The notes below the pieces were generated by a model. It did not search any database, was not told the origin of the DNA, and saw only the letters and a list, made by a program, of their open reading frames with translations. From an uncultured Methylococcaceae bacterium (GTDB lineage Bacteria > Pseudomonadota > Gammaproteobacteria > Methylococcales > Methylomonadaceae): 33,727 bases of DNA. Below are positions 7,690 through 28,896 of the stretch, in pieces (within the stretch, counting starts at the first letter, position 1; the number at the start of each line of letters is the position of its first letter). A program made the translations under genes and the position numbers. Location of the stretch: positions 1-33,727 of the forward strand of contig CAIQNQ010000105.1 of NCBI GenBank assembly GCA_903873165.1. Reading direction: 5' to 3'.

Positions 7690-9648
7690 TCATTTCTTAT
7701 TTAATTTTGGAGGTGAACTGAAATCCAATAGTGCATTGCCACTTTTTATTTTTAAATGACCTTGATCAAGAACCATAAATGGACTGTCAATAACAGGGCT
7801 TGAAGCGGGGGTCTGGATGATGTCATCAATTTTTATTTTTGGCAGTCCTACGACTCGATCAGTTTTTGTTTTTATATCTAGTTGAAACTGCGCTTCTACA
7901 GTTTTATGATCTTCATCAAGATAGGTTAGTTTGACTTGTGATGGTGAAAAATATAAGGCTTTGTTTTTAGTCATTGTAATGAATTGATTAAAATCCATAT
8001 TTTGAGTTTTTTCATCTACTTTGAAATAAATAGCTGTTTTGGGTTGCCTTATTTTAAAGACTTTATAGTCTACTAGATCAGGTTTGTTAGTCGTATCTTG
8101 ATATTCATTTTCGCCAAAAAGTGTACCCATGGCAATAAAAGTATCACCCGCTTTTGCAAAAACCCAGCTTTTTTCTTGCACAAGCTTATCAACTGACAAT
8201 GGAATTCGGCATTGAGCTAGTTGGTATATTGAATTTTGGTGTTCGTTTCGTAATTTAAAAAAACGGTTATTTGCATCAAATACCCAAGGGTCTTTCGAAG
8301 GTATATCAAAAAGCATTACACCTTCTGTTTTTCCTAGATAAACCTGCATAAATGGTGATGAGCGATCATTACTCCAAGCATCTTCTCCTAAATTACTTTT
8401 CCAGTAAGGTTGATAACATTCAATTTGGTTTTTTTCTTCTGTGCTTTTATATAGAATAGAAAAGAGTTCAGTGTCTTCATTATACCATCCAGGATTAAAT
8501 ATAGTAGTTCCTGCACCCAAAGCGAAATTTTTTGTAATATAGGCTTTGCCATATATCTCTGGTGATGTTTTTGCATCCCATATTCCAAAAGTAGGTGTGA
8601 CGGTTTTTATTGTATAAGGTGTGGCGTTGTTTTCTAAAAGTTTTAATACTGATTCAGGTGGCCTCCATTTTGAAAGTGCTAGCATCACTGTATACACTGG
8701 TTCTTTTCGTCCTTCCAGGTCATTAATTCCTAAATTTGGAATGCCATAATAATACCAAAGAATTTGTTGTGACACTGACACGTATTTATGTTTATCTAAA
8801 GTGACGGAGTTTTTTTGTGGCACAATTCCTCTTGCTAAAGGTGGGACAATAACTCCATCAAAGGAATGAGCTTTTAATGCAGAAAGCTGAAGAGTGGCTT
8901 GTAGTTCGACTATTTTTTTTACATCACTATCGCTTGCAAAATCAATAAGATTTAAGAGTGGGGTGAAGTTGGCCATAGCGTAGGTTGGTGATAATAATTC
9001 ATATTGGCCATCCTGCATAAATCGATAATTTCTTCGGAGCAATAATTCTTTAAGAGCGCTCATTAGTTCGGTAGATGAAAAATAATGATCATCCCTGTTA
9101 TGCCATTTTACATCTGGAAAATATTGCGCTAATAGATACCATGATGAAGAGCGTAACATTGCATGGTTAATCGTTCCATGATCTAATAAGGCATGTTTAA
9201 GTGATAATGCTACTTTTATGCGAGTTTTTTGCTCGGGTGTGAGACAATCACCATATTGATATAAATACCTTACCAACGGTGGCAAAGCAAACATTTCAAT
9301 TATATAAATGTTATTTTCTATTTTAGTTGATTCAAAAACCTTAACTATATATTCAGTATATTCTTGAGAGCCACAGCCTTGTAGTGCTGTTATACCTAAA
9401 ATATCATAGGTTTTAAATTTTGGGTTTTCATTGTCGATTGTCTCAGGCTCCATGATACTCAATAACCATTGCTTTCGTGCCTCAATACTTGCTCCATAGG
9501 TCGAAACAACTCTTGATGGTAGCTGCTGATAAGTAGTATTATCTGCATTTGCTTTAGGCAGCAAAGTTATAAGCAGTAATATTAATTGAAAAGACATTAT
9601 CCTATATTTAACATTTTTTAAATTTAATATGACACTCTTAAAGTACAT
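7690..9648 (-). CDS. Large secreted protein, probable alpha/alpha-toroid plus beta-sandwich (polysaccharide lyase-like), unassigned
   Basis: 652 residues; I cannot name a family. A signal peptide is clear: hydrophobic FQLILLLITLLP, then ANA (33-35) before Asp36. Met18 is an alternative start that would give a more standard signal peptide. Residues about 40-380 are helix-rich, with HGTINHAML (157-164) and ELLSPTY (217-223) followed by NLIDFASD. This pattern recalls the (alpha/alpha) toroid of heparinase-type, alginate and chondroitin lyases and GH88/GH105-like proteins. From about 380 the sequence becomes beta-rich, as in the sandwich domains that follow such toroids. Candidate catalytic residues are Asn161/His162, Tyr223 and Arg165. 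It sits between two acyltransferases within the polysaccharide locus, so trimming or remodelling of the same polymer in the periplasm is plausible. Substrate and activity are inference. Confidence 0.55.
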   Translation of the reverse strand: MYFKSVILNLKNVKYRIMSFQLILLLITLLPKANADNTTYQQLPSRVVSTYGASIEARKQWLLSIMEPETIDNENPKFKTYDILGITALQGCGSQEYTEYIVKVFESTKIENNIYIIEMFALPPLVRYLYQYGDCLTPEQKTRIKVALSLKHALLDHGTINHAMLRSSSWYLLAQYFPDVKWHNRDDHYFSSTELMSALKELLLRRNYRFMQDGQYELLSPTYAMANFTPLLNLIDFASDSDVKKIVELQATLQLSALKAHSFDGVIVPPLARGIVPQKNSVTLDKHKYVSVSQQILWYYYGIPNLGINDLEGRKEPVYTVMLALSKWRPPESVLKLLENNATPYTIKTVTPTFGIWDAKTSPEIYGKAYITKNFALGAGTTIFNPGWYNEDTELFSILYKSTEEKNQIECYQPYWKSNLGEDAWSNDRSSPFMQVYLGKTEGVMLFDIPSKDPWVFDANNRFFKLRNEHQNSIYQLAQCRIPLSVDKLVQEKSWVFAKAGDTFIAMGTLFGENEYQDTTNKPDLVDYKVFKIRQPKTAIYFKVDEKTQNMDFNQFITMTKNKALYFSPSQVKLTYLDEDHKTVEAQFQLDIKTKTDRVVGLPKIKIDDIIQTPASSPVIDSPFMVLDQGHLKIKSGNALLDFSSPPKLNKK

Positions 9649-10860: not shown

Positions 10861-11805
10861 TTAATCGTTTAACCAATCAAGATATAATGTTACTCCTTGA
10901 GAAACAGTTAAAAACTCTTTACTATAACCGGCCTGCCTTAAATCTGTTAAATCAGCCTGAGTATAACTTTGATAGGCACCTTTTAAATGTTCTGGAAAAG
11001 GAATGTATTCAATTGTACCTTCTTTATGCCAAGCAATTACCGCTTCTGCTATAGCATTAAATGGTTCTGCAGTTCCAGTACCCAGATTAAAGATCCCACG
11101 TTGTTCTGGATGATCAAAAAACCATAAGTTAACATCGACCACATCACCTACATAAACAAAATCTCGTTTATGCTCACCATTTGCCATGCCATCATAGCCT
11201 TCAAATAATCGAGCCACTTTATATTCTTTAACTTGGTTGTTAAAATGATATGCCGTGCTACTCATAGAGCCTTTATGTTGCTCCCTAGGACCATATACAT
11301 TAAAGTATCTAAAACCTACGATAGGACTTGTTGTAGTAGGCAGTAATCTCCTGACATATTGATCAAATTGAAACTTTGAATACGCATACATATTAATAGG
11401 CTGTTCACAGCTTCTATCAACACTAAAGCCATGATCACCATTGCCATACACCGAAGCGGATGACGCATATAAAAAGGCAATATTGTGCTCAATACAACGA
11501 TGTAAAATACGTTTTGAATAGTCGTAGTTATTATTCATAACAAATTGACCATTCCATTCTGTGGTTGCTGAACAAGCACCTTGATGAAATATGGCTTTAA
11601 CTCCATCTAAAAAGCCTGGCTCATCAATTTTTTGAATAAACTCACTTTTATCCATGTAATCAGCGACATTTAAATCAGCAATATTAAGCATTTTTCGACC
11701 ATTCACTAAATGATCAACTAATAATATATTAGTTTCTCCGCGTAAATTTAATGCTTTAATTAAGTTACTACCAATGAACCCAGCACCACCTGTCACAATA
11801 ATCAT
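10861..11805 (-). CDS. hldD: ADP-L-glycero-D-manno-heptose 6-epimerase
   Basis: 314 residues, close to the usual 310. It is a short-chain dehydrogenase with the N-terminal NADP site GGAGFIG (6-12), the motif [12 protein letters not shown] (73-84), and catalytic Tyr140-x-x-x-Lys144 in [11 protein letters not shown]. The [15 protein letters not shown] segment and the [12 protein letters not shown] block are typical of HldD/RfaD. It converts ADP-D-glycero- to ADP-L-glycero-D-manno-heptose, the inner-core donor, in the cytoplasm. Its ATG overlaps the hldE stop by ATGA (11802-11805), so the two are translationally coupled. Confidence 0.96.
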
Positions 11806-13226
11806 AATGTACCTTTTGCTTTATTGATCATAGAAGTTGTTGATTGACCTTCAACAAACTGCAATATTTTTACTTCTCCGCCGGCTTTAATAACGGCTTC
11901 ACCACCTACCACTTGATCTTCAGTGTAATCTCCGCCTTTTACGAGTACATCAGGTAATAATTTTGTATAAATTCGTTCTGGTGTTTCTTCTTCAAAAGGA
12001 ACCACCCAATCCACACAGGCTAATGCTGATAACACTGTCATTCGTTCTGCCAACTTATTAATGGGTCTTGAATCACCCTTTAGTATTTTTACCGATGCAT
12101 CTGAGTTAACAGCAACACATAATCGATCACCCAAAGCTCTTGCTTGTTTTAAATAGGCCACATGTCCAGCGTGTAGTAAATCAAAACAACCGTTGGTCAT
12201 AATGATTTTTTCGTTTTGAGCCTTTGCTTTTGCAAAAATTTCAAGCAACTCATCTTCTGATACTACACCATATACTACATTTATTGAGCTATGTAATGCT
12301 TCCGTTAGTTCATGGGGCGATACGGTTGAAGTACCTAATTTTCCAACCACAATACCGCCTGATAAATTAGCTAAGTACATGGCTTCTTGTAATGGCAAGT
12401 CAATAGATATTCCTAATGACATAACTGCGATTACGGTATCACCTGCTCCAGTGACATCAAAGACGTCTTTTGCTTGGGCTGGTAGTGAATGTGATTGATC
12501 GGGTTGAATTAATGTCATCCCAGCTTCACTACGAGTCAATAACAAATTCGCGATTTTATACTGATCCAATAAAGCCTGTCCTTTAGCAATTAACTGTTCT
12601 TCATTTTCTATTGTACCGACCACAGCCTTAAACTCAGACAAATTAGGCGTAACCACATCTGCGTAGGCATAACTTTCGTAATCTAAACGTTTAGGGTCAA
12701 CTAATACTTTAGCCCCCGATTGTTTAGATAGAGCGATATAAGTGGATACCTCGGCCAATGTCCCTTTACCATAATCAGAAAACACTACGACATTATTATT
12801 TGGCAGGTGTTTTTGTAGTGCTGCTGTTATGGCAGTGCTATCAAATTGAATGGGTGTTTCTTCAAAATCTATGCGAATCAGCTGTTGATGTTGTGCCATA
12901 ACGCGCAATTTACATATACTTCGGATAGTTGGTTCAATAATAAACTCACAGTCTACGCCTTCTGCTTCAAGCAGTTTTTTAAGAACCTTGCCATCAGCGT
13001 CATCTCCTACCACCCCAATTAAAGTGACTTTGCCACCTAACTTAGCAATATTTAATGCCACATTACCAGCACCACCAATGCGATCTTCAATAGCTTGGAC
13101 TTTAACTACTGGCACGGGTGCCTCAGGTGAAATGCGTGCAGCTTGCCCTGACCAATAACGGTCTAACATGACATCACCAACAACAATAATACGGGCTGTA
13201 TTAAATTCCGGTAGTTTATTAAACAC
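11802..13226 (-). CDS. hldE: Bifunctional heptose-7-phosphate kinase / heptose-1-phosphate adenylyltransferase
   Basis: 474 residues, against 477 in E. coli. The N-terminal ribokinase/PfkB domain (about 1-320) has [15 protein letters not shown] and the phosphate-transfer motif DVTGAGD with catalytic Asp263. The C-terminal cytidylyltransferase-like domain has [12 protein letters not shown] with HAGH at 352-355. It carries out two steps of ADP-heptose synthesis in the cytoplasm. The start is GTG at 13224-13226 with GAGGAG 7 bases upstream. The same bases upstream still read, in another frame, as the last codons of a gmhA gene (ETFSV stop), showing that hldE once directly followed gmhA. A decayed copy of its first 35 codons lies at 16191-16294. 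Confidence 0.96.
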
Positions 13227-13240
13227 TGAAAGTCTCCTCA
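13123..13240. repeat. Direct repeat copy A: intact gmhA/hldE junction
   Basis: These 118 bases align without gaps to 16191-16308 (offset 3068), with about 21 differences by eye, or roughly 82% identity. The stretch covers the first 35 codons of hldE, its GTG, its ribosome site, and a relic of the gmhA tail. Similarity ends sharply at both sides. Confidence 0.85.
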
Positions 13241-13601
13241 GAATATTGGTTATTTAATTTATTTTTAATAATTTGTAGTTATGCTCTAAACTGATTAACT
13301 TTTTGTTTGTTACAGAAACTCTTTTCATTACTAAAGTGATTGTTCAGTGAGTATTTCATTGTTTACTCAGGTTAGATATTTTTCAGATCAAAAAACAATG
13401 GGTGTAAGATTTTAGTTGATTTGAATATTGTATTTATCATAATAAGTTATTTTTAATAAATTGATCTTGGATTTAACTAAAAATAGTTAGTGAAATATAA
13501 ATAACACTTAAACTACCACTTCTAAATATTTTAATTTTTTTCGAGTGATATGCATTACTACGAAATTTTAATTAAAAGAATTAGTAGACTTGGTTGGTTT
13601 T
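13241..13601. other. 361-base AT-rich gene-free region upstream of hldE
   Basis: No credible ORF was seen on either strand. It lies downstream of the aldo/keto reductase and upstream of hldE, so it must hold a promoter for hldE-hldD unless transcription runs through. I found no convincing -35/-10 pair. One small perfect AT hairpin (TAACTA, 4-base loop, TAGTTA) is at 13474-13489, and TTTTAATTAAAA near 13567-13578 is a short palindrome; neither has the form of a good intrinsic terminator. No transposase remnant was recognised. Confidence 0.5.
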
Positions 13602-14558
13602 TTATAATCCCAAATTTTCCAAATTATAATCAATTATTTTTTGTACAAGTAAATCGGCTGGTTTAGATAATTCAGAATTATTAACCGCATTAACATTAGA
13701 TATAATGTTGCGTTTACTAGTTGAGGAAAATAAAATAATTGATGATTTGCGTTTATCTGACGTAGCTTTTAGTATCAACGTTTCAAATGATCCGTCTATT
13801 AAGAGGTCATAATTAATATCTTTTGACCATTCAATTGCTAAGGTCCTATTGGATTTTAGTATTTCTTTAATAATTGATAAAGACCCCGAAAACGTGCGGT
13901 ATAGAATATCAAATTTTGCATATGGTTCTATGTTATCTGTCACGTTCCAGTTATATTGTAATAATTCACAAAACTGGGGGTATTTAATTAGTAATTCTGG
14001 TACGCGTTTTACATCTCCGCCTACACCAAAACTTTTTATTAGACCTTTTGCTTGGCTCTCTTGTAAAGCATCTAATAAAGAAGGGTTAATTAAATCATCG
14101 GGTTGAGCTTCATGCATCAAAAATAAATCTAAATAGTCTCTTTTTAGAAAATTTAGACTCTTTTTTAAAGATTTTACTACTTCATCTCCCGTGAAATTCT
14201 CCCTTATATTAATATGTTGTGAGGTTTTACTAGCAGGTTGGATCATAGGAGATGATTTACGCAGTTTACGTATAATTGGTCTCAGTAATGTACGAGCATT
14301 AGCTAACAATGGATTGCTAATGGGTGGGCGGTTGCCAAATTTTGAACAAATGCTAACGTCATCACTTTTGTTTTTTAGAAACTTCCCAACAAGGAATTCA
14401 GTCTGTCCACGACCGTAGGATCTAGCCACATCAAAATGCCTAATACCTGCATCATAGGCTACATCAAGAAGAAACACAGTTTCTGGTTGTAAATAAGCAC
14501 AACCAAATCCTAATTGTGAGGTTTTCTTATCACTGTTTGGTAATTGTATCTGTCTCAT
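13602..14558 (-). CDS. Aldo/keto reductase
   Basis: 318 residues with the full AKR catalytic tetrad: Asp43 and Tyr48 in FDVARSYG, Lys73 in CSKFG, and His149 in LFLMHEA. The N-terminal GFGCAYL and the C-terminal STSKRNIISNVNAV nucleotide-binding region fit an NADPH-dependent (alpha/beta)8-barrel enzyme. The stretch of about 45 residues between Lys73 and the next helix (about 80-120) is longer and basic compared with minimal AKRs. The gene starts 11 bases after the GMC oxidoreductase, so the two probably form one unit. Together they could oxidise and re-reduce a hydroxyl of a sugar or cyclitol; the substrate is unknown. The pair is cargo between the two direct repeats. Confidence 0.85.
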   Translation of the reverse strand: MRQIQLPNSDKKTSQLGFGCAYLQPETVFLLDVAYDAGIRHFDVARSYGRGQTEFLVGKFLKNKSDDVSICSKFGNRPPISNPLLANARTLLRPIIRKLRKSSPMIQPASKTSQHINIRENFTGDEVVKSLKKSLNFLKRDYLDLFLMHEAQPDDLINPSLLDALQESQAKGLIKSFGVGGDVKRVPELLIKYPQFCELLQYNWNVTDNIEPYAKFDILYRTFSGSLSIIKEILKSNRTLAIEWSKDINYDLLIDGSFETLILKATSDKRKSSIILFSSTSKRNIISNVNAVNNSELSKPADLLVQKIIDYNLENLGL

Positions 14559-14569
14559 ATAGTGATATC

Positions 14570-16150
14570 CTAAAATGTTGAAATATTCAAATGATCTGCA
14601 AGCCTAAGAGCCAGCGCGATTGTGGTATGTGTGGGGTTTACAAATCCAGTACACGGGAAGACTGCACTACTACAGATATAAGTGTTCGTCATGTCATGAA
14701 TTTTAAGGTTTATATCTACAACGCCATCTTTTGGAGATAGCGACATTCTAGCTCCACCAATATGATGGTGCCCTTCTTTAATTTCAGACGTAAATTCAGT
14801 ATTACAATCTAATAGTCTTTTATCTATTTCGATTTCAGCTAATCCTTTTGATTCAAAAGCTTTCTTGGCTGATAATGCATAACTACGTAGACTATGTAAT
14901 TCTTGATTTGATAGTCGCCATTCAAGATGAACTTGAGGTAAACCAAGTTTATCTTTTTGATCACTAAGCCTAACGATACTATCACTGAGTGGTGATTGTT
15001 CACAATGTGCCACTAAAGAAAGTGTAGTAGATTTCGTTTTTGTGGCTTTCATAAGCTTTTGCATTAAAGGTATTTTATGCCAAAGTAATTTATGTGAACA
15101 CAACATTAAGTGGGTTAAGTTATGAAAATTAAGTTTATCAAAGCGCCTAGATTTCAAACTTTTAATCGTAACGAATGCTTGACTTAGGTCATCAACTCCA
15201 TTTGTAACAAAAGTTACTGTTCCTCCAACATCTAACATTTTTAATTGTTCTTGGTGCATCGAAGAAAGTTTGAGTTTTGGATGGTAGCGCCAACCATTTA
15301 AAGAAAAATAATCAAAAAATTTGTCTGGATCTGTTAAATTAATTGGCTTAACAGTAGCAATATTGGCAACTAAATGATCTTGGAAAAAACGCCCAACTTG
15401 ATCATTCACTTGCCAAGGTGCTAACTTACCGTCCGAAATAGGGAACAGCAAAAGACGAGATGTTTCAATTCCACCAGTACATAGCACAAAAATACTGGCT
15501 TTTATTTCAATAGCTCTATTTTCCTTATGGCGACAAATGATAGAAGTAATCTTATTTCTTTGTGAGTTTAGTTTAAATTCGGTCACATTTGCATGCAATG
15601 CTAATGTAAGGTTCGGAAGAGTTTTTAATTCATTTCTATAAAGATCTGAAAAGTCACGTATTTGACACCAGCTTGATATGCCGTGAATAAAATGCTCACC
15701 TAAATCTAGTGGTGATATTTCACGCTTTTTCCAAATTTCCTTTGGGTCGGTAATTGAATCTTTAAGTCCTTCATACTCAATTGCTTCATCATAAAAAGGT
15801 TGAAGTTCGTCTTTATTAAAAAGCCACCCACTTCCTTCAATCCAAGGGCGATTAGGAAAAATATGCTCGTCTATTTCTAGTATTTGCCCACCCCACTGAG
15901 TACTTGTTCCGCCGACTCCCCTAAAGCGTCCTTCACTTAATCCATCAAAGTTTAACCCTTCTGTAGTGCCGCTATAAAGTTCTTGTGCAAACGATTCATG
16001 ATGGCGTCCTCCCGATTCTAAAAGTAAAACTTCTCGTCCCAGTCTTGCTAATTTTATGGCTAAACAAATGCCAACAGGCCCAGCACCTATAATGCAGATG
16101 TCTTTTTCATTAGTAAGAGAGTCTATAATATCGTTTAATTCAACAATCAT
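14570..16150 (-). CDS. GMC-family FAD-dependent oxidoreductase
   Basis: 526 residues. The N-terminal FAD Rossmann motif is IIGAGPVG (20-27), followed by the Glu-containing LLLESGG. FRGVGGTSTQWGGQ is the GMC signature around residues 75-90. The C-terminus has HHHIGGARM (461-469) and NPTHTT (505-510), supplying the His and the Asn/His of the GMC active site. Members oxidise alcohols, often sugar hydroxyls, using FAD. There is no signal peptide, so it is probably cytoplasmic. It lies next to the decayed hldE fragment and 11 bases upstream of the aldo/keto reductase. Such pairs occur in polysaccharide loci, but the exact substrate cannot be stated. Confidence 0.87.
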   Translation of the reverse strand: MIVELNDIIDSLTNEKDICIIGAGPVGICLAIKLARLGREVLLLESGGRHHESFAQELYSGTTEGLNFDGLSEGRFRGVGGTSTQWGGQILEIDEHIFPNRPWIEGSGWLFNKDELQPFYDEAIEYEGLKDSITDPKEIWKKREISPLDLGEHFIHGISSWCQIRDFSDLYRNELKTLPNLTLALHANVTEFKLNSQRNKITSIICRHKENRAIEIKASIFVLCTGGIETSRLLLFPISDGKLAPWQVNDQVGRFFQDHLVANIATVKPINLTDPDKFFDYFSLNGWRYHPKLKLSSMHQEQLKMLDVGGTVTFVTNGVDDLSQAFVTIKSLKSRRFDKLNFHNLTHLMLCSHKLLWHKIPLMQKLMKATKTKSTTLSLVAHCEQSPLSDSIVRLSDQKDKLGLPQVHLEWRLSNQELHSLRSYALSAKKAFESKGLAEIEIDKRLLDCNTEFTSEIKEGHHHIGGARMSLSPKDGVVDINLKIHDMTNTYICSSAVFPCTGFVNPTHTTIALALRLADHLNISTF

Positions 16151-16190
16151 GTTAACCTGACTTTATTTAAATTTTATTATTGTTAGAATT

Positions 16191-16294
16191 TCATGTGAAA
16201 TGCGTACAACTTGTCCTGACCAATAATGATCTAACATGATATCGCCGACCATGATAATGTGGATTTAGTTAAATTCGGGTAGTTTATTAAACAC
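16191..16294 (-). pseudogene. Decayed 5' fragment of hldE
   Basis: Read on the minus strand from the GTG at 16292-16294, this gives VFNKLPEFN, then an in-frame TAA at 16265-16267 (codon 10), then IHIIMVGDIMLDHYWSGQ and VVRISHE. Intact hldE reads [35 protein letters not shown]. The alignment has no gaps; the copy ends at codon 35. Its stop and its missense changes show that it is not functional. It lies exactly where hldE would follow gmhA in the standard operon. Confidence 0.88.
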
Positions 16295-16308
16295 TAAAAG
16301 TCTCCTCA
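16191..16308. repeat. Direct repeat copy B: decayed gmhA/hldE junction
   Basis: Partner of 13123-13240 in the same orientation. It contains the real end of gmhA (GAGGAGACTTTTAGTGTTTAA on the minus strand, where the Glu-Thr-Phe-Ser-Val codons double as the hldE ribosome site and start) plus the dead hldE start. The GMC and AKR genes lie between the two copies. Confidence 0.85.
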
Positions 16309-16850
16309 ATCACATCACACCACCAGTGACCAATTATAATATGAGCTTCTTGAATTCTTGCCGTTATTTTAGATGGAACGTTAATTGAATGAGAAACAAT
16401 TTTGCTCAGTTCTCCACCTTCAGCCCCGGTTAAACCGATAACTAGCATACCTTTTAAGTTAGCAGCTTCAGCGGCTTTTATAATATTCTTGCTACGACCT
16501 GACGTTGATATTGCAATTAAACAATCTTTTTGTGTTGCTAAACCCTCTACCTGTCTGGCATAAACAGTTTCAAAATCAAAGTCATTGGCATGTGCAGTTA
16601 AAATAGAGGTATCCGTTGTTAAGGCAATTGCTGCTAACGCAGGCCGAACTATACGATACTTGACTACTAATTCGGCTGCTATATGTTGACAATCAGCAGC
16701 ACTACCACCGTTACCGCATAAAAAGATTTTACCTCCATTTTTTAATGTTTCAATCAATTTATCCGCTACTGTCTCAATAGTTTCAGAACAGGATACCAAA
16801 CGCTCAATCATTGATTTGTGTTCTTCAAGTTCCAATATAAATTTTTTCAA
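16287..16850 (-). CDS. gmhA: Sedoheptulose-7-phosphate isomerase
   Basis: 187 residues (E. coli 192). It is an SIS-domain protein with LCGNGGSAADCQHIAAEL; the expected zinc ligands His56 and Glu60, and Gln167 and His175 in the C-terminal QEAHIIIGHWW, are all present. ISTSGRSKNI is the sugar-phosphate-binding loop. It makes D-glycero-D-manno-heptose 7-phosphate, the first step to ADP-heptose, in the cytoplasm. Its last codons overlap the dead hldE start, showing the former gmhA-hldE arrangement. The phosphatase gmhB is not in the window. Confidence 0.95.
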   Translation of the reverse strand: MKKFILELEEHKSMIERLVSCSETIETVADKLIETLKNGGKIFLCGNGGSAADCQHIAAELVVKYRIVRPALAAIALTTDTSILTAHANDFDFETVYARQVEGLATQKDCLIAISTSGRSKNIIKAAEAANLKGMLVIGLTGAEGGELSKIVSHSINVPSKITARIQEAHIIIGHWWCDVIEETFSV

Positions 16851-16891: not shown

Positions 16892-17965
16892 TTAATTATT
16901 AGTAAACGAAATCAAATGTATACTTCGTTCAGCAACTTCATTAGCTTGTATAGAGCGAATACAAATCATTTTTTGGTCTACGCATACGCTAAGCTTACAA
17001 TTTGAACAAGGTACTTCATTGTAAAAAACATTTTTTTCATTGCCATAAGGGAACCAAACTCCAGGTTTATCTCTTGCAGCAAAAATACTAATGCAAGGAA
17101 TCCCAACACTACTGGCTAAATGCATTGGTCCACTGTCGTGACCTATGAATAAAGATGCTTGATTTAAAACAGCTGCGCTTTGCCGAGGATTTATTGCCCC
17201 GCATAAATTAAGATATTCACCTTGCCAATTTTTTACAATCGATTCGCATCTTTCATGTTCATCTGGCGAACCTAGAAAAACCAATGAATAGGAACCATTT
17301 AATTTGTCCTGAAGTATTTGCAAAAGTTCTATCCACCGATCAGATCCCCAATCTTTAGCTGCCACTTTAGCGCCAACACTTAAGGCAATAAAAGGCTTAT
17401 GCAAAACATCAAGTAATTTTTTTGCAACATCAAATTCATTATTTTGAAGTTCTAGTGAAAACAGTTTCTGATTCAGTTCGTTTGAACTATATCCAATTGT
17501 CCGGATAATTCGGCCTGCTTCTGATTCATAAAGATTAGAGTTAGAAAGTTTAATATGCGTATTGCAGTTTTTAACTGGGTATAAGCCACGTACTTTTAGA
17601 ATTCCAGATAATAAGAAAAAAAATGCATCCCTTAAACGTTGTGAGTTGGAACGAATTGGCATTAAATAAATACTTCGGTCAGGACTCAATTTTCGAATTT
17701 TATTTATAACCTTAATAAAAGATTTAAAATTAATTTTTCCATGCGGATATTCAATATAGTCATCAATAAGTCCTGAGCCAATTAATATTTGATGACTTGG
17801 GGCGGCTTTTATACCGCCATCAACAGGTGAGTTGGTTAGCAGAGTAATTTTACTATTTGGAAATTCTGCGCGGATTAAATGAAATGCTGGCAAGGCAACT
17901 AAGGTATCACCTAAGCTACCAATTCTAAATATAAGTACATTTTTATAATCTTTTTGATTTAACAT
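16892..17965 (-). CDS. Heptosyltransferase family glycosyltransferase (GT9)
   Basis: 357 residues. The N-terminal VLIFRIGSLGDTLVALPAF is the GT9 signature, with the catalytic Asp after Leu-Gly. The C-terminal half has LSVGAKVAAKDW and FIGHDSGPMHLASSVGIPCI, where ADP-heptose binds, and a Cys-rich tail (CSNCKLSVC, later MICIRSI) seen in many GT9 members. It would add a heptose or related sugar to LPS core or to an O-antigen unit at the cytoplasmic membrane face. Placement directly upstream of gmhA supports a heptose donor. It is not a clear WaaC or WaaF, so no symbol is given. Confidence 0.87.
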   Translation of the reverse strand: MLNQKDYKNVLIFRIGSLGDTLVALPAFHLIRAEFPNSKITLLTNSPVDGGIKAAPSHQILIGSGLIDDYIEYPHGKINFKSFIKVINKIRKLSPDRSIYLMPIRSNSQRLRDAFFFLLSGILKVRGLYPVKNCNTHIKLSNSNLYESEAGRIIRTIGYSSNELNQKLFSLELQNNEFDVAKKLLDVLHKPFIALSVGAKVAAKDWGSDRWIELLQILQDKLNGSYSLVFLGSPDEHERCESIVKNWQGEYLNLCGAINPRQSAAVLNQASLFIGHDSGPMHLASSVGIPCISIFAARDKPGVWFPYGNEKNVFYNEVPCSNCKLSVCVDQKMICIRSIQANEVAERSIHLISFTNN

Positions 17966-18057
17966 TCGTTTTTATTTATTTAGGAACTGCTTGTTGAGAT
18001 TTTAAATTTTATATTCGAATTACTTAGGATATTACTAGTTAAAGATTATAAAAATTA

Positions 18058-18636
18058 CTAATATTTATGTTTCTCTGTACCACTATTGCGTGGTTTAATT
18101 GGCCTCGCAGGCGATCCATAACAAATCATTCCCTCTGGTAAGTCCCCAAAAACAGAACTTCTCGCCCCTACCACTGTACCTCTACCAATTGTAACACCAG
18201 GACCAACAAATACATCGTTAGGTAACCAGACTTCATCTTCAATTTTGATCGGCTTTTCACCGATATCGAAGGTGATTTTATTAATGTCGTGAAAACCAGT
18301 GCATAAATAGACTCTATGTGCAATTGACACATTTGAACCAATTTCAATGTATCCTAAGTTATAAATAATTGATTCATCACCAATCCAAGTATAATCGCCA
18401 ATCGATAATTTCCATGGATAAGTTATCGTCGCGCTCGGGCGAATTAATACCCCTTTGCCTATTTTTGCCCCAAACAATCTTAGTAGTGAACATCTAAATG
18501 AATACATGAATTTAGGTGAGAGCTTGAACAAAGAACTTTGCACAAACCACCACAACTGTGTGTAAACTTTGCTTTTTCCGCGAAAATCAGCTGGGACCGT
18601 AAATTTAGAAAGGTCTTGATATTTGGGTGAGTTCAT
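18058..18636 (-). CDS. WcaF-like hexapeptide-repeat acetyltransferase
   Basis: 192 residues from the ATG at 18636. The frame is open for eight more codons upstream, but this ATG has a GAAGGA ribosome site and overlaps the preceding stop as ATGA, so it is preferred. Left-handed beta-helix repeats run from IGKGVLIRPSATI through IEIGSNVSIAHRVYL and IEDEVWLPNDVFVGPGVTIG to VVGARSSVFG. The catalytic His is in TGFHDIN. The C-terminal GSPARPIKPR is typical of the NodL/LacA/WcaF group. The aromatic-rich N-terminus (VYTQLWWFVQSSLF) matches colanic-acid WcaF-type proteins. It would O-acetylate a sugar of the lipid-linked repeat from acetyl-CoA in the cytoplasm. Confidence 0.88.
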   Translation of the reverse strand: MNSPKYQDLSKFTVPADFRGKSKVYTQLWWFVQSSLFKLSPKFMYSFRCSLLRLFGAKIGKGVLIRPSATITYPWKLSIGDYTWIGDESIIYNLGYIEIGSNVSIAHRVYLCTGFHDINKITFDIGEKPIKIEDEVWLPNDVFVGPGVTIGRGTVVGARSSVFGDLPEGMICYGSPARPIKPRNSGTEKHKY

Positions 18637-19619
18637 ATTTCCTTCTTTTTCAACATCCAATTAACAGTTTCATGTATTCCCATATCCTCAGTATAAGGAA
18701 GATTACCAGTTACTTTTGATATTTCAGAGAAATCGTGAATCATTTCAGTAGTTAAATTATTCAATCTAAAAGTAGTTAATGGCGAGTTTTTATAGCCTAA
18801 ATTTGTTAGAAGATCTCCAGTTTTTGCTAATAAATTCATTAAGAAAAATGGAATAGATAAGGGTGAAGAAACACCGAATTCTTTAGCAATTTTTTTAGAA
18901 AAGCTATCTACTTCAATTGGAATATAGTCACCTAGATAAAATGTTTTGGTATTTATTAAATCAGATTGTGCTGACATTAATTGTCTTAGTTGAAATACTG
19001 AATTGCCAACATAACCGAATGATTTTTTAATTATCATTTTTCCAGGGTGAACGTATCTATGTGCTTTAATGTGATCAAAAAACAAACGGTACGGAACATC
19101 AAACCATGGACCCCAAATAGAAGTAGGTCTGACAATAACCCATTCAAAAGGTAATTTACTATGGTTGCGTACGATTTGTTCTCCCAACACTTTGCTTTCA
19201 CCATAAGCAGTGGTTGGGCAGTAGTCAAGATCGGTTGCGGGTTGATAGCCAATTTTACACACTAGTCGAGAGGAAGCAAAAATCACCCTTTTGACGCTAT
19301 TAGTTTCAATACAGGCGTCAATTAGATTAGTTACCCCTTGTGTGTTTGCAGAATAATCATTGATATTATCTGAATGTAAATCAGTACGCGCACCTAGGTG
19401 AAAAATTTGTGTTGGTGAAAAGTCTTTAATTGTGGATATAAGTTTTTCTCGATCTCTTAAGTCGACATTACACCAAATATTTTGGTGTAATGAACAACGT
19501 GGTTTATCAATATCAATATTCAATATTTCGCAATCATTTTTAAGTAGGTCTTCGATTAAATTAGTGCCAATGAAGCCTGAACCACCTGTTACAACAATCC
19601 TATTGGGATAATCTCGCAT
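18633..19619 (-). CDS. NAD(P)-dependent epimerase/dehydratase (extended SDR)
   Basis: 328 residues. The N-terminal VVTGGSGFIGTNL is the nucleotide site, then FHLGARTDLHSD, and the catalytic Tyr-x-x-x-Lys is in TTAYGESK with an upstream Ser in FASSRLV. PTSIWGPWF fits the substrate pocket of sugar-nucleotide epimerases. The substrate (NDP-hexose, or possibly a lipid-linked sugar) cannot be read from sequence. Its ATG follows directly on the stop of the GT4 gene (no gap), and its stop overlaps the acetyltransferase start by ATGA, so the three genes are tightly coupled and probably act on the same sugar. Confidence 0.83.
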   Translation of the reverse strand: MRDYPNRIVVTGGSGFIGTNLIEDLLKNDCEILNIDIDKPRCSLHQNIWCNVDLRDREKLISTIKDFSPTQIFHLGARTDLHSDNINDYSANTQGVTNLIDACIETNSVKRVIFASSRLVCKIGYQPATDLDYCPTTAYGESKVLGEQIVRNHSKLPFEWVIVRPTSIWGPWFDVPYRLFFDHIKAHRYVHPGKMIIKKSFGYVGNSVFQLRQLMSAQSDLINTKTFYLGDYIPIEVDSFSKKIAKEFGVSSPLSIPFFLMNLLAKTGDLLTNLGYKNSPLTTFRLNNLTTEMIHDFSEISKVTGNLPYTEDMGIHETVNWMLKKKEI

Positions 19620-20969: not shown

Positions 20970-22013
20970 TCATGGGCATATGGCTGAAATGATTTGCCGG
21001 CAAATATCTTCATTGCCAACTTTATTTTCTAAAACTCGTTTCATACCCGCAATACGAATATTTTCGCGTTTATCGGGGTTTGAAAGCAAATCAAGACACT
21101 TACTTGCACATTCATCCGCGTCTTTCCAAAACACAGCTTCTTTATTTTCTGTATAGAGTTCTAAATGTTCTGTTGTGCGTTCGGCGCAGAGTAAGCCTCC
21201 AGCATAAGGTATTTCCATGCTACGAGTTGTGTGCAAATCTCGGTTGCCTTTTGATAGTAATCCTAAACAAATTTTGGCACCCTGAATGGCCGATACATAA
21301 TTTTGCCCTGATAATGCTCCACCTCGCCAATAATTTTGTAACTTTGCCCAAAGGGGGGATTTTTGCCAACGATCGCCCCAAATAGAAACATTTAATCCAC
21401 TTTCGATTAAATGTAATAAAAACTGGTCACGATTTTCATTTTTCATCCAAGTGCCAATAAAAGCCACATCGGTTTGGAATTTTAGAGGTATGTGTGCAAA
21501 ATCGTTACTGGGCTTATGTAATATTTCATCGTAGCTCATCCATACGCGCAGGACTTTGGGTACACCAAGCTGAAGAAATTCTGTTAGATTTTGGTTTCTT
21601 ACTACTGCGCATAAGTTGTAATTTGGTAATGCTTTAAGGAGTGAGTCAAACTTATTGCCGTCACGACCACCGGTTGGGTCGTCGTTCATATAAAGTATTA
21701 ATGGACGATTGAGTTGTCGTAGCTTGGATATTGCATTATTTCCAATCAGTTCACCGCCATTGACCCAAACCAGGTCTGGAAGATTTTTTGTATGGAATTG
21801 TAGAATGGTATTTACCCAATTGTCCATGCTGGGTTGTAATAACCTGTATCCACTCCGGAAATGAATAGCTCCTAGTATTCGATTTTTTAGTTGATGGGAA
21901 AAAGTACTATATGGGTCAATAATGTGTACTTCATGGCCTAATCGAATTAAAGCATTGGCTCTATGTTGGCTGGTTGATGATGGTGCACTATTGCCAATAT
22001 ATAAAATTTTCAT
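20970..22013 (-). CDS. CgeB-like glycosyltransferase
   Basis: 347 residues. MKILYIGNSAPSSTSQHRANALIRLGHEV is a GT-B N-terminus. LPDLVWVNGGELI and LILYMNDDPTGGRDG recall the CgeB / DUF3880 glycosyltransferase group, as do VAFIGTWMKNENR and SIWGDRW. KICLGLLSKGNRDLHTTRSMEIPYAGG is the donor-binding region with R-S-x-E-x-x-x-x-G in place of the GT4 E-x7-E. CgeB members glycosylate spore or surface structures. The likely role here is one sugar-addition step of the repeat unit in the cytoplasm. Confidence 0.8.
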   Translation of the reverse strand: MKILYIGNSAPSSTSQHRANALIRLGHEVHIIDPYSTFSHQLKNRILGAIHFRSGYRLLQPSMDNWVNTILQFHTKNLPDLVWVNGGELIGNNAISKLRQLNRPLILYMNDDPTGGRDGNKFDSLLKALPNYNLCAVVRNQNLTEFLQLGVPKVLRVWMSYDEILHKPSNDFAHIPLKFQTDVAFIGTWMKNENRDQFLLHLIESGLNVSIWGDRWQKSPLWAKLQNYWRGGALSGQNYVSAIQGAKICLGLLSKGNRDLHTTRSMEIPYAGGLLCAERTTEHLELYTENKEAVFWKDADECASKCLDLLSNPDKRENIRIAGMKRVLENKVGNEDICRQIISAICP

Positions 22014-22080: not shown

Positions 22081-23697
22081 CTATTTGGAATGTAGTAAGA
22101 GGCGTTGTTTATTATTTAATGACGTGATTATTTGAATAGCTTTATATATTAATGCAAAAATTACTGCGGACTGTGGAAGTGTTCGAAGTAATGCGCCAAT
22201 TATACCAACTAGGGAGTCTATAACGCCAAAATTAAAAACCATCATTATTTGCAGATTAAGTAATAAACTTAAATTTATTTTGTTTCCGATAATAACAAAA
22301 GATTGCAGGGATATAAAAAGTAATATGAATAAAGGAATAACAGCTATAAAAACCAAGTACCCCATTAATCCAATACCATGAGCAATTGTTGAGCCAACTC
22401 TATACCCACCTAGTCCTTTACCGGTTTCTAAATAGTACATAATATCGCCGAAAGAATATTTTAAATTATTTTTATCCAAATTTAAATTTAATGTCTTTAT
22501 TAAAGGTGTTGGCATTAACGCTAAAATTTTATCTAGCGTTACGTCCCATAGTGCTAATGCATATTGCATGGAGCAAATTTGCTTCAAAGAAAGCATATTG
22601 TCCAAAAACTTAGTATATATAAAACGCGCTAAGAAAGGATTGGGTATGTATGTCTCGTTATATTCACCCTGATTTGTTAGATCTAAAATTAATTCACGGT
22701 ATTCTTCAAGTTCTTTTTTGTTTTGAAAAGCTGTTAAAGTTTGGTCTAACATTTCCATGTTGGATATTTCACCTTTTTGGGCCCTCGTTACTACTACCGC
22801 AGTTGCAAAATCAGATAATATAGGGGACAAAAAAATTACAAGTAAAACAGCAATGCCACAATTTCGTATATTTTTTTTGGACACTTCTAATTGCCCCATT
22901 AATATAAGTAATGTAATAGTAATGCCAAGATTTATTATACCTAATATGATTATTCCACGGGCATTAAGTATTGTTCCAAGCAATAATAGTACTAAGGTAT
23001 ATATAGTTAAAAATACTCGAGTAGTCGCTCGGTTTAAATGTGGTTCCTGGTGTTGTTTTGAAGAAAAGTTATCTAAAATTTCTAAAAAATACGGTGCATA
23101 AACTAGATACATAAGCCCGTCTAATAATTTATTGCCAGCATCTCCATATTCTACTGCATCATTAGTGTTTGTGGTGCTCCATGCCATAGCGGTTAAACCA
23201 ATAAGCCCTAGTAACCATGTTTGCAGATAAGTAGGTCGTTGCATCAACCCCATGGGTTTTATTATCAAGTTATTTATTTTTTTACTGATAAACAAAAATT
23301 TTAAATTTTTAAAAACAAAAAGTGAAATTAGTAGGGACACTTGAAACAGTGCTGCGTAAGTAAATGTAGTTTCTGGTACAAGCAGGTTAATTATGAGTGG
23401 TTGTAAAAAAAAGGATTGTACAATAAGTGCGCCGCTCAGATATGAGATGTTATATCCGATAATTACTAGGGTTGGAAATGGTACAGCTCGGATTATATGT
23501 GCTCTGAGAACAAGGTTAAAAGTTATTAGAGAGATTATCAGTACGGTAAAAATGCTGATAAAATTTAGGAGGCTCGGCTCGATACATACTTGCAATATAG
23601 TGGATATAAATAAACCGCTATTTATAATTGTCCGAGCCTTTTTGCACGCTTGGATAGATAAAATAAATTGCTTAGATTTATTATTAGATCTGATCAT
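22081..23697 (-). CDS. Polytopic membrane protein, putative Wzy-type O-antigen polymerase
   Basis: 538 residues with about twelve hydrophobic segments and a large hydrophilic stretch at about 305-430, expected in the periplasm, which fits Wzy topology. The segment KGLGGYRVGSTIAHGIGLMGYL, after the loop, is reminiscent of oligosaccharide-repeat polymerases (O-antigen_polysaccharide_polymerase type). Wzy proteins share almost no sequence, so the call rests on topology and on position between glycosyltransferases and near wzx. The DNA is markedly AT-rich: in the row 22261-22320 I count 13 G+C of 60. The start ATG overlaps the stop of a short upstream frame as ATGA. Confidence 0.6.
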   Translation of the reverse strand: MIRSNNKSKQFILSIQACKKARTIINSGLFISTILQVCIEPSLLNFISIFTVLIISLITFNLVLRAHIIRAVPFPTLVIIGYNISYLSGALIVQSFFLQPLIINLLVPETTFTYAALFQVSLLISLFVFKNLKFLFISKKINNLIIKPMGLMQRPTYLQTWLLGLIGLTAMAWSTTNTNDAVEYGDAGNKLLDGLMYLVYAPYFLEILDNFSSKQHQEPHLNRATTRVFLTIYTLVLLLLGTILNARGIIILGIINLGITITLLILMGQLEVSKKNIRNCGIAVLLVIFLSPILSDFATAVVVTRAQKGEISNMEMLDQTLTAFQNKKELEEYRELILDLTNQGEYNETYIPNPFLARFIYTKFLDNMLSLKQICSMQYALALWDVTLDKILALMPTPLIKTLNLNLDKNNLKYSFGDIMYYLETGKGLGGYRVGSTIAHGIGLMGYLVFIAVIPLFILLFISLQSFVIIGNKINLSLLLNLQIMMVFNFGVIDSLVGIIGALLRTLPQSAVIFALIYKAIQIITSLNNKQRLLLHSK

Positions 23698-25030: not shown

Positions 25031-26572
25031 TTACTTGGATTTGCTTAACAATTTTGGCACAAACCGCCTTGCTAAACCGCCAGCACGCTCACGAGCCATT
25101 TGAGGCAAAGCGTGCCAGTAAATCACTGTTACAATAGCCGCAGCCAATAGGGCTAATAATAGATATTCTTGCTTGTTACCGGGTACCTCTGCTATCACCC
25201 CTAAGCCTGTCGCTGCAATGATTATGGATGCAAAGGTCGTCGAAAATGCACGCCATGGCCAATGCATACTGTTTTTCCGTAACCAGCGTGTCGCAACCAA
25301 TAGGTAGGCAAGCAGATTAGCCAATTCCGCTAGTAATAAAGCAAACGCAGCACCACGAATTCCATAAAGAGGTACCAGCACGAACAATCCTCCAGTAGTT
25401 ATAAGAGCTGTAAGTACTGATATATATAGTTGGGTACGTACTATATTGTGCCCTTGTATCACAGCGATGGCAGGTTGGGTTAGCGCATATAATAATATGC
25501 TAAGTGAAAGCATACCGAAAACCCATGGGTCGAAAATTATTTTGCCGTGTGTCCACAGTGGAAAAAATTCAGGCGCCAGGTATTGCACTATAAGTACAGC
25601 GGGTGTCAGTCCGACACAAACAACTAGCCATACCACAGAAAATGCACCTTCCGTCCTCTGTTGGTCGCGTGCTTCTATAAAGCGCATCAACTCTGGCATA
25701 ATGGGCCCAGTGACAGTATTTAGGCCTTGTAATGCAAAATTAGCACCTGTGCGCATTGTAGAAAACGCTGCCATATCAGTAACACCTGCTAGAGGTGAAA
25801 GCAGTAATCGTACCCCTTGCTGGCGACTCATTTCTGCTAAACCTTTCAGTGTCAACCATAAGGATTTAACCCCGTTCATGATGCCTAATTTGAGTGTGGG
25901 GCGAGCTAAAAAAAAACCTTCCCGTCGAATTAGACGTACCATATCTGCTAAATGAACAACATAGAATGCAGTCGAAGTAGCACATAGGGCTATCATGGCT
26001 TGCCATAGATCAGCTCCTAAAAAAACAGCAACACCAGGTACTATGCTTGTAATTAATGAATAGAATGTACCCCACCAAGCAATGCGTGGAAAGTGACCGA
26101 AGGGCGTCAATCCCCTTACAATCAATCCTCCCATGCTTGTCGTAAATAAGAAAGTAACGGCTTGTAACATTATTGCTGCATGCCATTCATTTGCCAATTC
26201 AATGTCATGATTCATCCATTTTTCGGTGAAACCGAATTCACCTAGTATAAAAATGAAAAAAATGTCTATTAGTGTAATTAATAGGGCAATTGGTGCTGCC
26301 GAGAAAATGGTGCGGGCTATTTCTATACGGTTATTTGCTCCCAAACGCAGGCATTCATAACCCACATAATCATGGTGCCCCATATCTGCTACAGTAATAA
26401 TTGCCCAAGTTGCCTGAAGCAATAACCATGCGCCGTACACCTCAGGCTTCCAGTTACTCAGATAAAGTGGTACCAAAGCAATTTGAGTAACTATGGTGAT
26501 ACCAATACGTACCCAAGCCGCAGCACTGGCAGAAAGTATACGGGCCATCCCAGTACGTTGCGTAACACTCAT
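25031..26572 (-). CDS. wzx: Wzx-like O-antigen flippase (MOP superfamily)
   Basis: 513 residues with about twelve to fourteen hydrophobic segments. The N-terminal WVRIGITIVTQIALVPLYLSNW followed by YGAWLLLQ is the typical first helix pair of polysaccharide-biosynthesis flippases. The usual basic cytoplasmic loops and a C-terminal basic tail (RRFVPKLLSKSK) are present. It would flip the undecaprenyl-linked repeat to the periplasm. Base composition stands out: in the row 25321-25380 I count 27 G+C of 60, about twice the count in a sample from the Wzy-like gene, which suggests a different origin for this gene. Confidence 0.82.
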   Translation of the reverse strand: MSVTQRTGMARILSASAAAWVRIGITIVTQIALVPLYLSNWKPEVYGAWLLLQATWAIITVADMGHHDYVGYECLRLGANNRIEIARTIFSAAPIALLITLIDIFFIFILGEFGFTEKWMNHDIELANEWHAAIMLQAVTFLFTTSMGGLIVRGLTPFGHFPRIAWWGTFYSLITSIVPGVAVFLGADLWQAMIALCATSTAFYVVHLADMVRLIRREGFFLARPTLKLGIMNGVKSLWLTLKGLAEMSRQQGVRLLLSPLAGVTDMAAFSTMRTGANFALQGLNTVTGPIMPELMRFIEARDQQRTEGAFSVVWLVVCVGLTPAVLIVQYLAPEFFPLWTHGKIIFDPWVFGMLSLSILLYALTQPAIAVIQGHNIVRTQLYISVLTALITTGGLFVLVPLYGIRGAAFALLLAELANLLAYLLVATRWLRKNSMHWPWRAFSTTFASIIIAATGLGVIAEVPGNKQEYLLLALLAAAIVTVIYWHALPQMARERAGGLARRFVPKLLSKSK

Positions 26573-28056: not shown

Positions 28057-28896
28057 TTATTTTGTGATTAGTGGAACATATCGCATAGGTTCATTAGGGC
28101 GGTAGGTTTTTGCACCCGCTATTATTTTTCCCGTTGCTCCAAATTCAGCCCAACATTTTTCTGCGAACTCAAGCATGGTGATTGTGTTGCCTGTCCCTAC
28201 ATTAGCAACTGTTGGAATTCCTTTTTTTACAATTGTAATGTCTTCGCTTGCATAAAGAAATGCTTCTGCGACTTTCTCTACGGGCATAAAATCTCTAATT
28301 TGTCCACCTGGTGTCATTAAGAAGTCTTCACCATTTAATGCTGCTGATTTAAGTGAAGGCCAAAAATTATTAATGTATTGACCTTCACCATACGCAGAAA
28401 ATATTCTTAGATAACAAAGTTCTATCTGGTTTTCTATTGCAAAGGCATGTGCGGCAATAAAAGCAGCTGCTTTTGATGCCGCATAAGCAGAGGTTGGTAG
28501 TAATGGGGCCTCAGCTGGAATATATTCGTAATTATCCGCAGAAAGACCATATTCAGCAAAAGTTCCTGCGACTACAAATCGTTTAACACCTGCTTTATGA
28601 GCCTTTTCAAATAAATCTAACGTGACCAAAACATTCCAATAAAATAACTCATTCCATGTGGCCGTTTTTGGGCTTACACCGATAGAAGCTAAATGAATAA
28701 AGGTATCTATACCAGAAAAATCAGATGTCTCTAATTTATCCATGTTTTTATTCAACCATACCGGTTGTTTTTTTATATCAATACATGTTTTGGATTGCTC
28801 TCTACATAACGCTGTTACGTGATGTGGCGTTGTACTCAATAGATTTAATAAGTGACTGCCTACAAAACCAGTCCCCCCTGTTAAAAATATATTCAT
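28057..28896 (-). CDS. SDR reductase for a CDP-4-keto-3,6-dideoxyhexose (abequose/paratose/ascarylose synthase type)
   Basis: 279 residues. The N-terminal IFLTGGTGFVGSHLLNLL is the nucleotide site. FIHLASIGVSP and VVAGTFAEYG precede the catalytic Tyr-x-x-x-Lys in TSAYAASKAAA, and RIFSAYGEGQ follows. By position after rfbF/G/H it should reduce the 4-keto group of a CDP-3,6-dideoxyhexose in the cytoplasm. With a 5-epimerase gene directly upstream (ATGA overlap at 28893-28896), the L-sugar route (AscF of Yersinia ascarylose) fits better than abequose or paratose. Sequence alone does not decide the product stereochemistry. Confidence 0.78.
   Translation of the reverse strand: MNIFLTGGTGFVGSHLLNLLSTTPHHVTALCREQSKTCIDIKKQPVWLNKNMDKLETSDFSGIDTFIHLASIGVSPKTATWNELFYWNVLVTLDLFEKAHKAGVKRFVVAGTFAEYGLSADNYEYIPAEAPLLPTSAYAASKAAAFIAAHAFAIENQIELCYLRIFSAYGEGQYINNFWPSLKSAALNGEDFLMTPGGQIRDFMPVEKVAEAFLYASEDITIVKKGIPTVANVGTGNTITMLEFAEKCWAEFGATGKIIAGAKTYRPNEPMRYVPLITK

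Follow-up and report, generated by a model that had tools for sequence, protein, structure and literature searches.

A probable insertion scar between gmhA and hldE in a freshwater methane-oxidizing bacterium

We describe a locus in a freshwater methane-oxidizing bacterium that is very probably an insertion scar, in which a segment encoding a GMC-type oxidoreductase and an aldo/keto reductase (AKR) entered the ancestral junction of the heptose genes gmhA and hldE and left a short stretch of that junction on both of its sides. The DNA analyzed (here, the window) is contig C105 of genome G000, 33,727 nucleotides long; the assembly is a draft of 298 contigs, and the arrangement is known from this one genome, as a second isolate was not found. 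As a trace of gene insertion the locus is clear but fairly ordinary: events of this kind are known, this one happens to be cleanly preserved, and it opens no new class of system. It offers one snapshot of accessory genes entering an overlapping core operon without breaking it.

All of the genes concerned lie on the minus strand, in the order GT9 (16892 to 17965), gmhA, hldE fragment, GMC, AKR, spacer, hldE, and an NAD-dependent epimerase (10861 to 11805) that we take for gmhD. The sedoheptulose-7-phosphate isomerase gene gmhA (16287 to 16850) is intact and carries a SIS domain (PF13580 SIS_2; E = 4.2e-29). The gene for the bifunctional heptose-7-phosphate kinase/adenylyltransferase, hldE (11802 to 13226), is also intact, with PfkB and CTP_transf_like domains in a reading frame of 474 amino acids, in keeping with the claim of an earlier note on this DNA that a working hldE was retained; its nearest named relatives are in uncultured Methylococcaceae and Methylococcales genomes. 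The two genes are separated by a decayed copy of their junction (16191 to 16308), which comprises 14 nt of the gmhA end with the ribosome site, the GTG start, and hldE codons 1 to 35, followed by a 40-nt AT-rich joint (16151 to 16190; 17.5% G+C) leading to the start of the GMC-type FAD oxidoreductase gene (14570 to 16150; 526 amino acids; PF05199, E = 8e-20), the AKR gene (13602 to 14558; 318 amino acids; PF00248, E = 7.4e-21), and a 361-nt AT-rich spacer (13241 to 13601; 22% G+C) with stop codons in each of the three frames of the transcribed strand. The intact copy of the junction (13123 to 13240), with ribosome site and hldE codons 1 to 35, comes last and heads the complete hldE. Codon 35 is incomplete in both copies.

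A pairwise alignment that included the flanks matched 13123 to 13240 with 16191 to 16308 over 118 nt without gaps and with 21 differences (82.2% identity), so that the coordinates and the count given in the earlier note are exact. When the window was compared with itself by BLASTN (E ≤ 1e-3), this repeat, which bounds the segment on both sides, was the sole direct off-diagonal match (E = 2.4e-27); the one further match was an imperfect 34-nt palindrome (88%) at 28450 to 28483, within the open reading frame (ORF) at 28057 to 28896. A protein search also picked up the fragment (E = 2.7e-10), read in its own frame and interrupted by a single TAA, which falls at hldE codon 10 of the right copy, as had been claimed. 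The right copy had also been placed directly after gmhA, and the two do adjoin, but they overlap: because the end of gmhA and the GTG start of hldE overlap, the right copy contains the last codons of gmhA and its TAA (16287 to 16289), and the first 22 nt of the fragment are still gmhA coding sequence. It follows from the same overlap that the left copy, rightly identified as the start of the intact hldE, additionally holds, ahead of the hldE GTG, 14 nt that used to be gmhA coding sequence and that include a GAGGAG ribosome site. The similarity of the copies stops sharply at the edge of these 14 nt, and the flanks beyond the 118 nt are unlike each other. The breakpoints of the insertion lie at about 16190/16191 and about 13240/13241. 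BLASTN alignments to relatives end at 13239/13240 for the left copy in 18 of 21 loci and at 16190/16191 for the right copy in 10 of these 21 loci, some of which belong to the same genome. One joint lies where the left copy begins, immediately ahead of the ribosome site, and the other where the right copy breaks off at codon 35.

Related genomes show the junction without an insert. Among the 35 genomes of the genus that were searched, 30 gave an hldE match (the other 5 being uninformative on the junction), and a second hldE start was present in 1 of these 30, G000 itself. In all 29 readable congeners gmhA runs straight into the hldE GTG; for alignments that fell short, the end of gmhA was placed by extrapolation to residue 187, and the junction sequences were read directly for part of the set. 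The uninterrupted operon that the earlier note anticipated in related strains is therefore general among the readable congeners; the other cargo that it proposed to look for at this site appeared in none of the 29, and a full second hldE was found in none of the 35 genus genomes. Since 29 of 29 congeners are uninterrupted and only 1 of 30 genomes has a second start, the claim that the GMC/AKR pair entered a core heptose operon is well borne out. In two more distant named loci, gmhA and hldE are near each other (84 nt apart in L077 and 20 nt in L078), and in nine order-level loci gmhA was not found within the 1.5 kb beside hldE. One genome, G042, has an odd open frame of 1,938 amino acids over hldE, probably a masked or N stretch because long frames are open there on both strands.

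From the arrangement in the readable congeners we infer an ancestor in which gmhA ran into hldE. A segment of ~2.95 kb, consisting of GMC, AKR, and the AT-rich spacer, would have entered after about hldE codon 35, leaving on both of its sides the sequence that runs from the ribosome site as far as codon 35. The inner copy would then have headed the complete hldE with a ribosome site of its own, while the outer copy, cut at codon 35, would have decayed except insofar as its first 22 nt still encode the end of gmhA. Because the ribosome site and the start are both contained in the repeated piece, each neighbor keeps an intact reading frame.

The outer copy bears the marks of such decay. Using 6 sister sequences and another 24 congeners to polarize the 21 differences, we assigned 13 as derived in the fragment, 3 as derived in hldE, and 5 as unclear, including position 12, where both copies differ from every relative; for 4 of the 13 fragment changes the assignment comes from the sister sequences only, as some outgroups share the fragment's base. 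The 13 fragment changes are spread over codon positions 1, 2, and 3 as 3/7/3, with 10 of the 13 at the first two positions, whereas the differences between the window and the sister genome G011 are distributed 46/16/198 across the whole of hldE (Fisher p = 1.4e-4) and 3/0/13 across the same 34 codons (p = 0.003). Eleven of the 13 are changes from G/C to A/T and 1 is from A/T to G/C. The fragment has thus lost both its frame and its codon-position constraint, as a pseudogene fragment of hldE would, and it looks to have decayed without visible selection, with the substitution pattern of unselected DNA; a single substitution in a TCA serine codon, the codon that G011 has there, would account for the TAA at codon 10. 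The earlier description of the right hldE start as dead accordingly agrees with both the stop codon and the pattern of decay, and on a small scale the fragment documents how unselected DNA decays in the genome of a methanotroph.

Of all sequences compared, the fragment is nearest to the hldE of the window itself (21 differences; 28 to the next nearest), which disfavors a distant donor of the junction. The hldE of the window differs less from the hldE genes of the sisters (18 to 19 differences) than from the fragment. In a maximum-likelihood tree of the 118 nt the fragment and the window hldE are paired with a bootstrap of 98; AU tests did not reject trees in which the fragment groups with G011, joins the sister group, or falls outside (p = 0.07 to 0.11). 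When the fragment, the window hldE, and G011 are compared three ways, the odd one out is G011 at 12 sites, the window hldE at 5, and the fragment at 14. Among the 12 are codon 2 (TTT) and codon 5 (CTA), whose forms in the fragment and the window hldE are absent from the six sister sequences. Over nearly the same codons, the synonymous divergence between fragment and hldE (0.60) lies between that of the window and G021 (0.57) and that of the window and G011 (0.73), so the insertion is old and may date from around the time at which these species diverged; whole-gene values for hldE are 1.15 for window and G011 and 1.10 for window and G021. We counted 8.5 synonymous differences between the copies where about 4.7 would be expected had they been identical when formed (P about 0.09), which is at most a hint that the two were already different alleles when joined. 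Trees of the genes around the junction were compared for discordance and show no clear conflict: the window stands beside G011 for gmhA and hldE (bootstraps 100 and 86), and G011 is grouped with the G021 group for gmhD (bootstrap 74). The window branch is long in the gmhA tree (0.259, versus 0.063 for G011), and the contrast is milder in the hldE tree (0.185 versus 0.127).

How the segment was joined is less clear than that it entered. The earlier note had offered two routes, import of a segment carrying its own junction or duplication followed by decay; import from a distant donor is disfavored, as noted above, while 118 nt are too few to distinguish local duplication from an import whose donor was a close relative, and the two fit the anatomy about equally. 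We tentatively take one-sided homologous import as the most likely route, with the reservation due to any reading held at somewhat less than even confidence. DNA of a close relative in which the cargo precedes hldE would have recombined homologously within hldE at one end, the other end would have been joined illegitimately inside the resident hldE, and the duplicated stretch would be where the two joints overlap. Natural transformation could deliver such DNA; the genome encodes a member of the ComEC family (PF03772; E = 2.4e-66), as do 10 of 14 control genomes. No donor with the cargo ahead of hldE, as this route requires, was found. The competing route, which we also regard as a substantial possibility short of an even chance, needs no homologous donor: the start of hldE would have been copied in place, through fill-in or template switching at the insertion or through an earlier tandem duplication whose first copy took the insert. 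The nearness of the fragment to the window's own hldE is what such copying would give, and the start of hldE is not more foreign than the rest of the gene (pS against G011 of 0.465 for codons 2 to 35 and 0.588 for the whole gene). Local duplication sits less well with the slight synonymous excess between the copies and with the genome's lack of a match to Ku (PF02735), which would serve end joining; nor does this route itself account for a copy that begins exactly at the ribosome site, which selection to keep hldE working would explain.

Other origins of the repeat appear less probable than either route. A direct repeat flanking an insert is exactly what Campbell-type integration predicts, in which a circular DNA bearing the cargo and a 118-nt piece of the hldE start would integrate by a single crossover at hldE, but the insert has two intact ORFs, for GMC and AKR, and neither is an integrase, relaxase, or replication gene, and a circle carrying an hldE piece of the same lineage presupposes an earlier event; we consider this origin unlikely. 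Direct repeats on either side would also suit site-specific or transposon insertion with target duplication, a reading that is extremely improbable here: usual target duplications are far shorter than 118 nt, the ORFs of at least 90 amino acids in the insert are GMC and AKR only, with no integrase, transposase, or other recombinase gene among them, and no terminal repeats were seen at 13241 and 16190. We considered a 24-nt pattern within 13570 to 13595 of the spacer as a possible element end. It occurs with 1 to 2 mismatches in 8 of 35 genus genomes, that of the window included, and in the five inspected of the seven others it lies antisense in a conserved coding region, read as rpsH, so it was rejected as an insertion sequence; at up to 2 mismatches G000 has no copy beyond that in the spacer, which otherwise gives only short matches to the rest of the genus (20 to 55 nt, 77 to 100%), and the recurrence is probably due to chance in AT-rich DNA.

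An assembly chimera would be in keeping with a draft of 298 contigs and an arrangement found once, but the pattern of decay, in its codon positions and its G/C to A/T changes, fits natural decay and not misassembly, and 20 of the 29 window ORFs tested have a counterpart in largely the same order on a single G011 contig, making this explanation very improbable. Nor do we give much credence to the fragment having been kept as a functional leader, a 9-codon ORF plus spacer that couples GMC translation to gmhA, which we hold to be quite improbable: the first 41 nt are better kept than the remainder (3 differences in 41 versus 18 in 77; p = 0.04), but the difference is not significant once the 22 gmhA-coding nt are set aside (2 in 19 versus 18 in 77; p = 0.35), and the changes elsewhere in the fragment look unselected.

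The preferred reading, a scar left by an inserted segment, has parallels in the literature. Repeats flank 10 to 18% of the variable segments in bacterial genomes surveyed in PMC2884548, and the present locus resembles those segments in being a small insert between conserved genes with direct repeats at its bounds; in that survey 66 to 94% of the repeats are shorter than 30 bp, whereas here the repeat is a gene junction of 118 bp that is 18% diverged. The same source describes homology-assisted illegitimate recombination for three species that are naturally competent. Homology-facilitated illegitimate recombination (de Vries and Wackernagel 2002 and Prudhomme et al. 2002, both via PMC2884548; PMC3240628) combines one homologous with one illegitimate joint and would yield the anatomy seen here; unlike in those cases as they are summarized there, the joint at this locus is old and no donor with the required gene order was found. 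Transformation-induced merodiploids, as outlined in PMC3784515, carry intact and cassette-broken copies of an essential gene, and the window likewise has an intact and a broken copy of such a gene in one chromosome; there this follows DNA uptake, and the duplications span about 100 to 900 kb between repeats rather than 118 bp. Among the open-literature matches listed, none by title concerned insertions in the gmhA/hldE operon or gene fragments of this kind, none was found on heptose in Methylococcaceae, and for GMC and aldo-keto pairs in polysaccharide clusters only a fungal genome study came up, again by title.

The cargo genes belong to families with solved members. By sequence, the best solved relative of the GMC enzyme is the large subunit of fructose dehydrogenase (E = 1.5e-20) and that of the AKR is 1ynp, with the D-Y-K-H residues, which we take to be the AKR active site, readable in the alignment. 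Judging from the protein families and the neighborhood, which are the grounds for the proposal, the pair probably oxidizes and reduces a sugar of the neighboring polysaccharide.

Distant versions of the pair recur across genomes. On contig C228 of G011, the counterparts other than those of the acetyltransferase, GMC, and AKR (25 to 37%) are 58 to 96% identical to the window proteins. Its GMC-AKR pair (25% identity for GMC and 37% over 180 residues for AKR) lies not between gmhA and hldE but upstream of GT9, where its neighbors are an acetyltransferase-like gene on one side and a methyltransferase gene on the other. The GT4-GT9 interval there (locus L150, 12340 to 17399) holds acetyltransferase-like, GMC, AKR, FkbM methyltransferase, and GT2 genes, and its counterpart in the window (16892 to 19619) holds genes for an SDR epimerase and a WcaF-like acetyltransferase, so that one block is swapped in a largely matching cluster. 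On the megaplasmid of Cupriavidus metallidurans CH34 a pair in the same order has 37% (GMC) and 33% (AKR) identity to that of the window (NC_007974.2, locus L213, 8974 to 11614); a second GMC gene lies downstream, and no evident polysaccharide cluster was present among the neighbors scanned. Genome G265 has the pair in reverse order beside glycosyltransferase and polysaccharide-export genes. With a profile built from these four pairs, whose matches at the four sources are by construction, no AKR was found at 11 other GMC loci, in one of which (L188) the GMC gene is at the contig end. Relatives of the GMC protein occur in 13 of 301 order-level genomes, its own included, at E ≤ 1e-30, a limit at which G011 is not counted. 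The AKR was matched in only its own genome among 369 class-level genomes (E ≤ 1e-20) and in two, its own and G011, among 41 relatives (E ≤ 0.001); in viral contigs, where it was the sole cargo query, it was not found.

The GMC of the window is nearer to that of Cupriavidus (37%) than to that of G011 (25%), and the AKR match to Cupriavidus is longer and stronger (E = 4e-54 versus 3e-32 for G011), though not higher in percent identity, which argues for separate acquisition of the pair in the window and in its sister. It is possible, if doubtful, that the pair is a portable sugar-tailoring module needed by the polysaccharide, which the two sisters would have acquired independently at different places; if so, one of these acquisitions split a core heptose operon and left its duplicated start. 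Elsewhere in the window, four long ORFs (7690 to 9648, 20970 to 22013, 22081 to 23697, and 25031 to 26572) have no NCBIfam match, the first of them no Pfam match either, and all four have homologues in G011.
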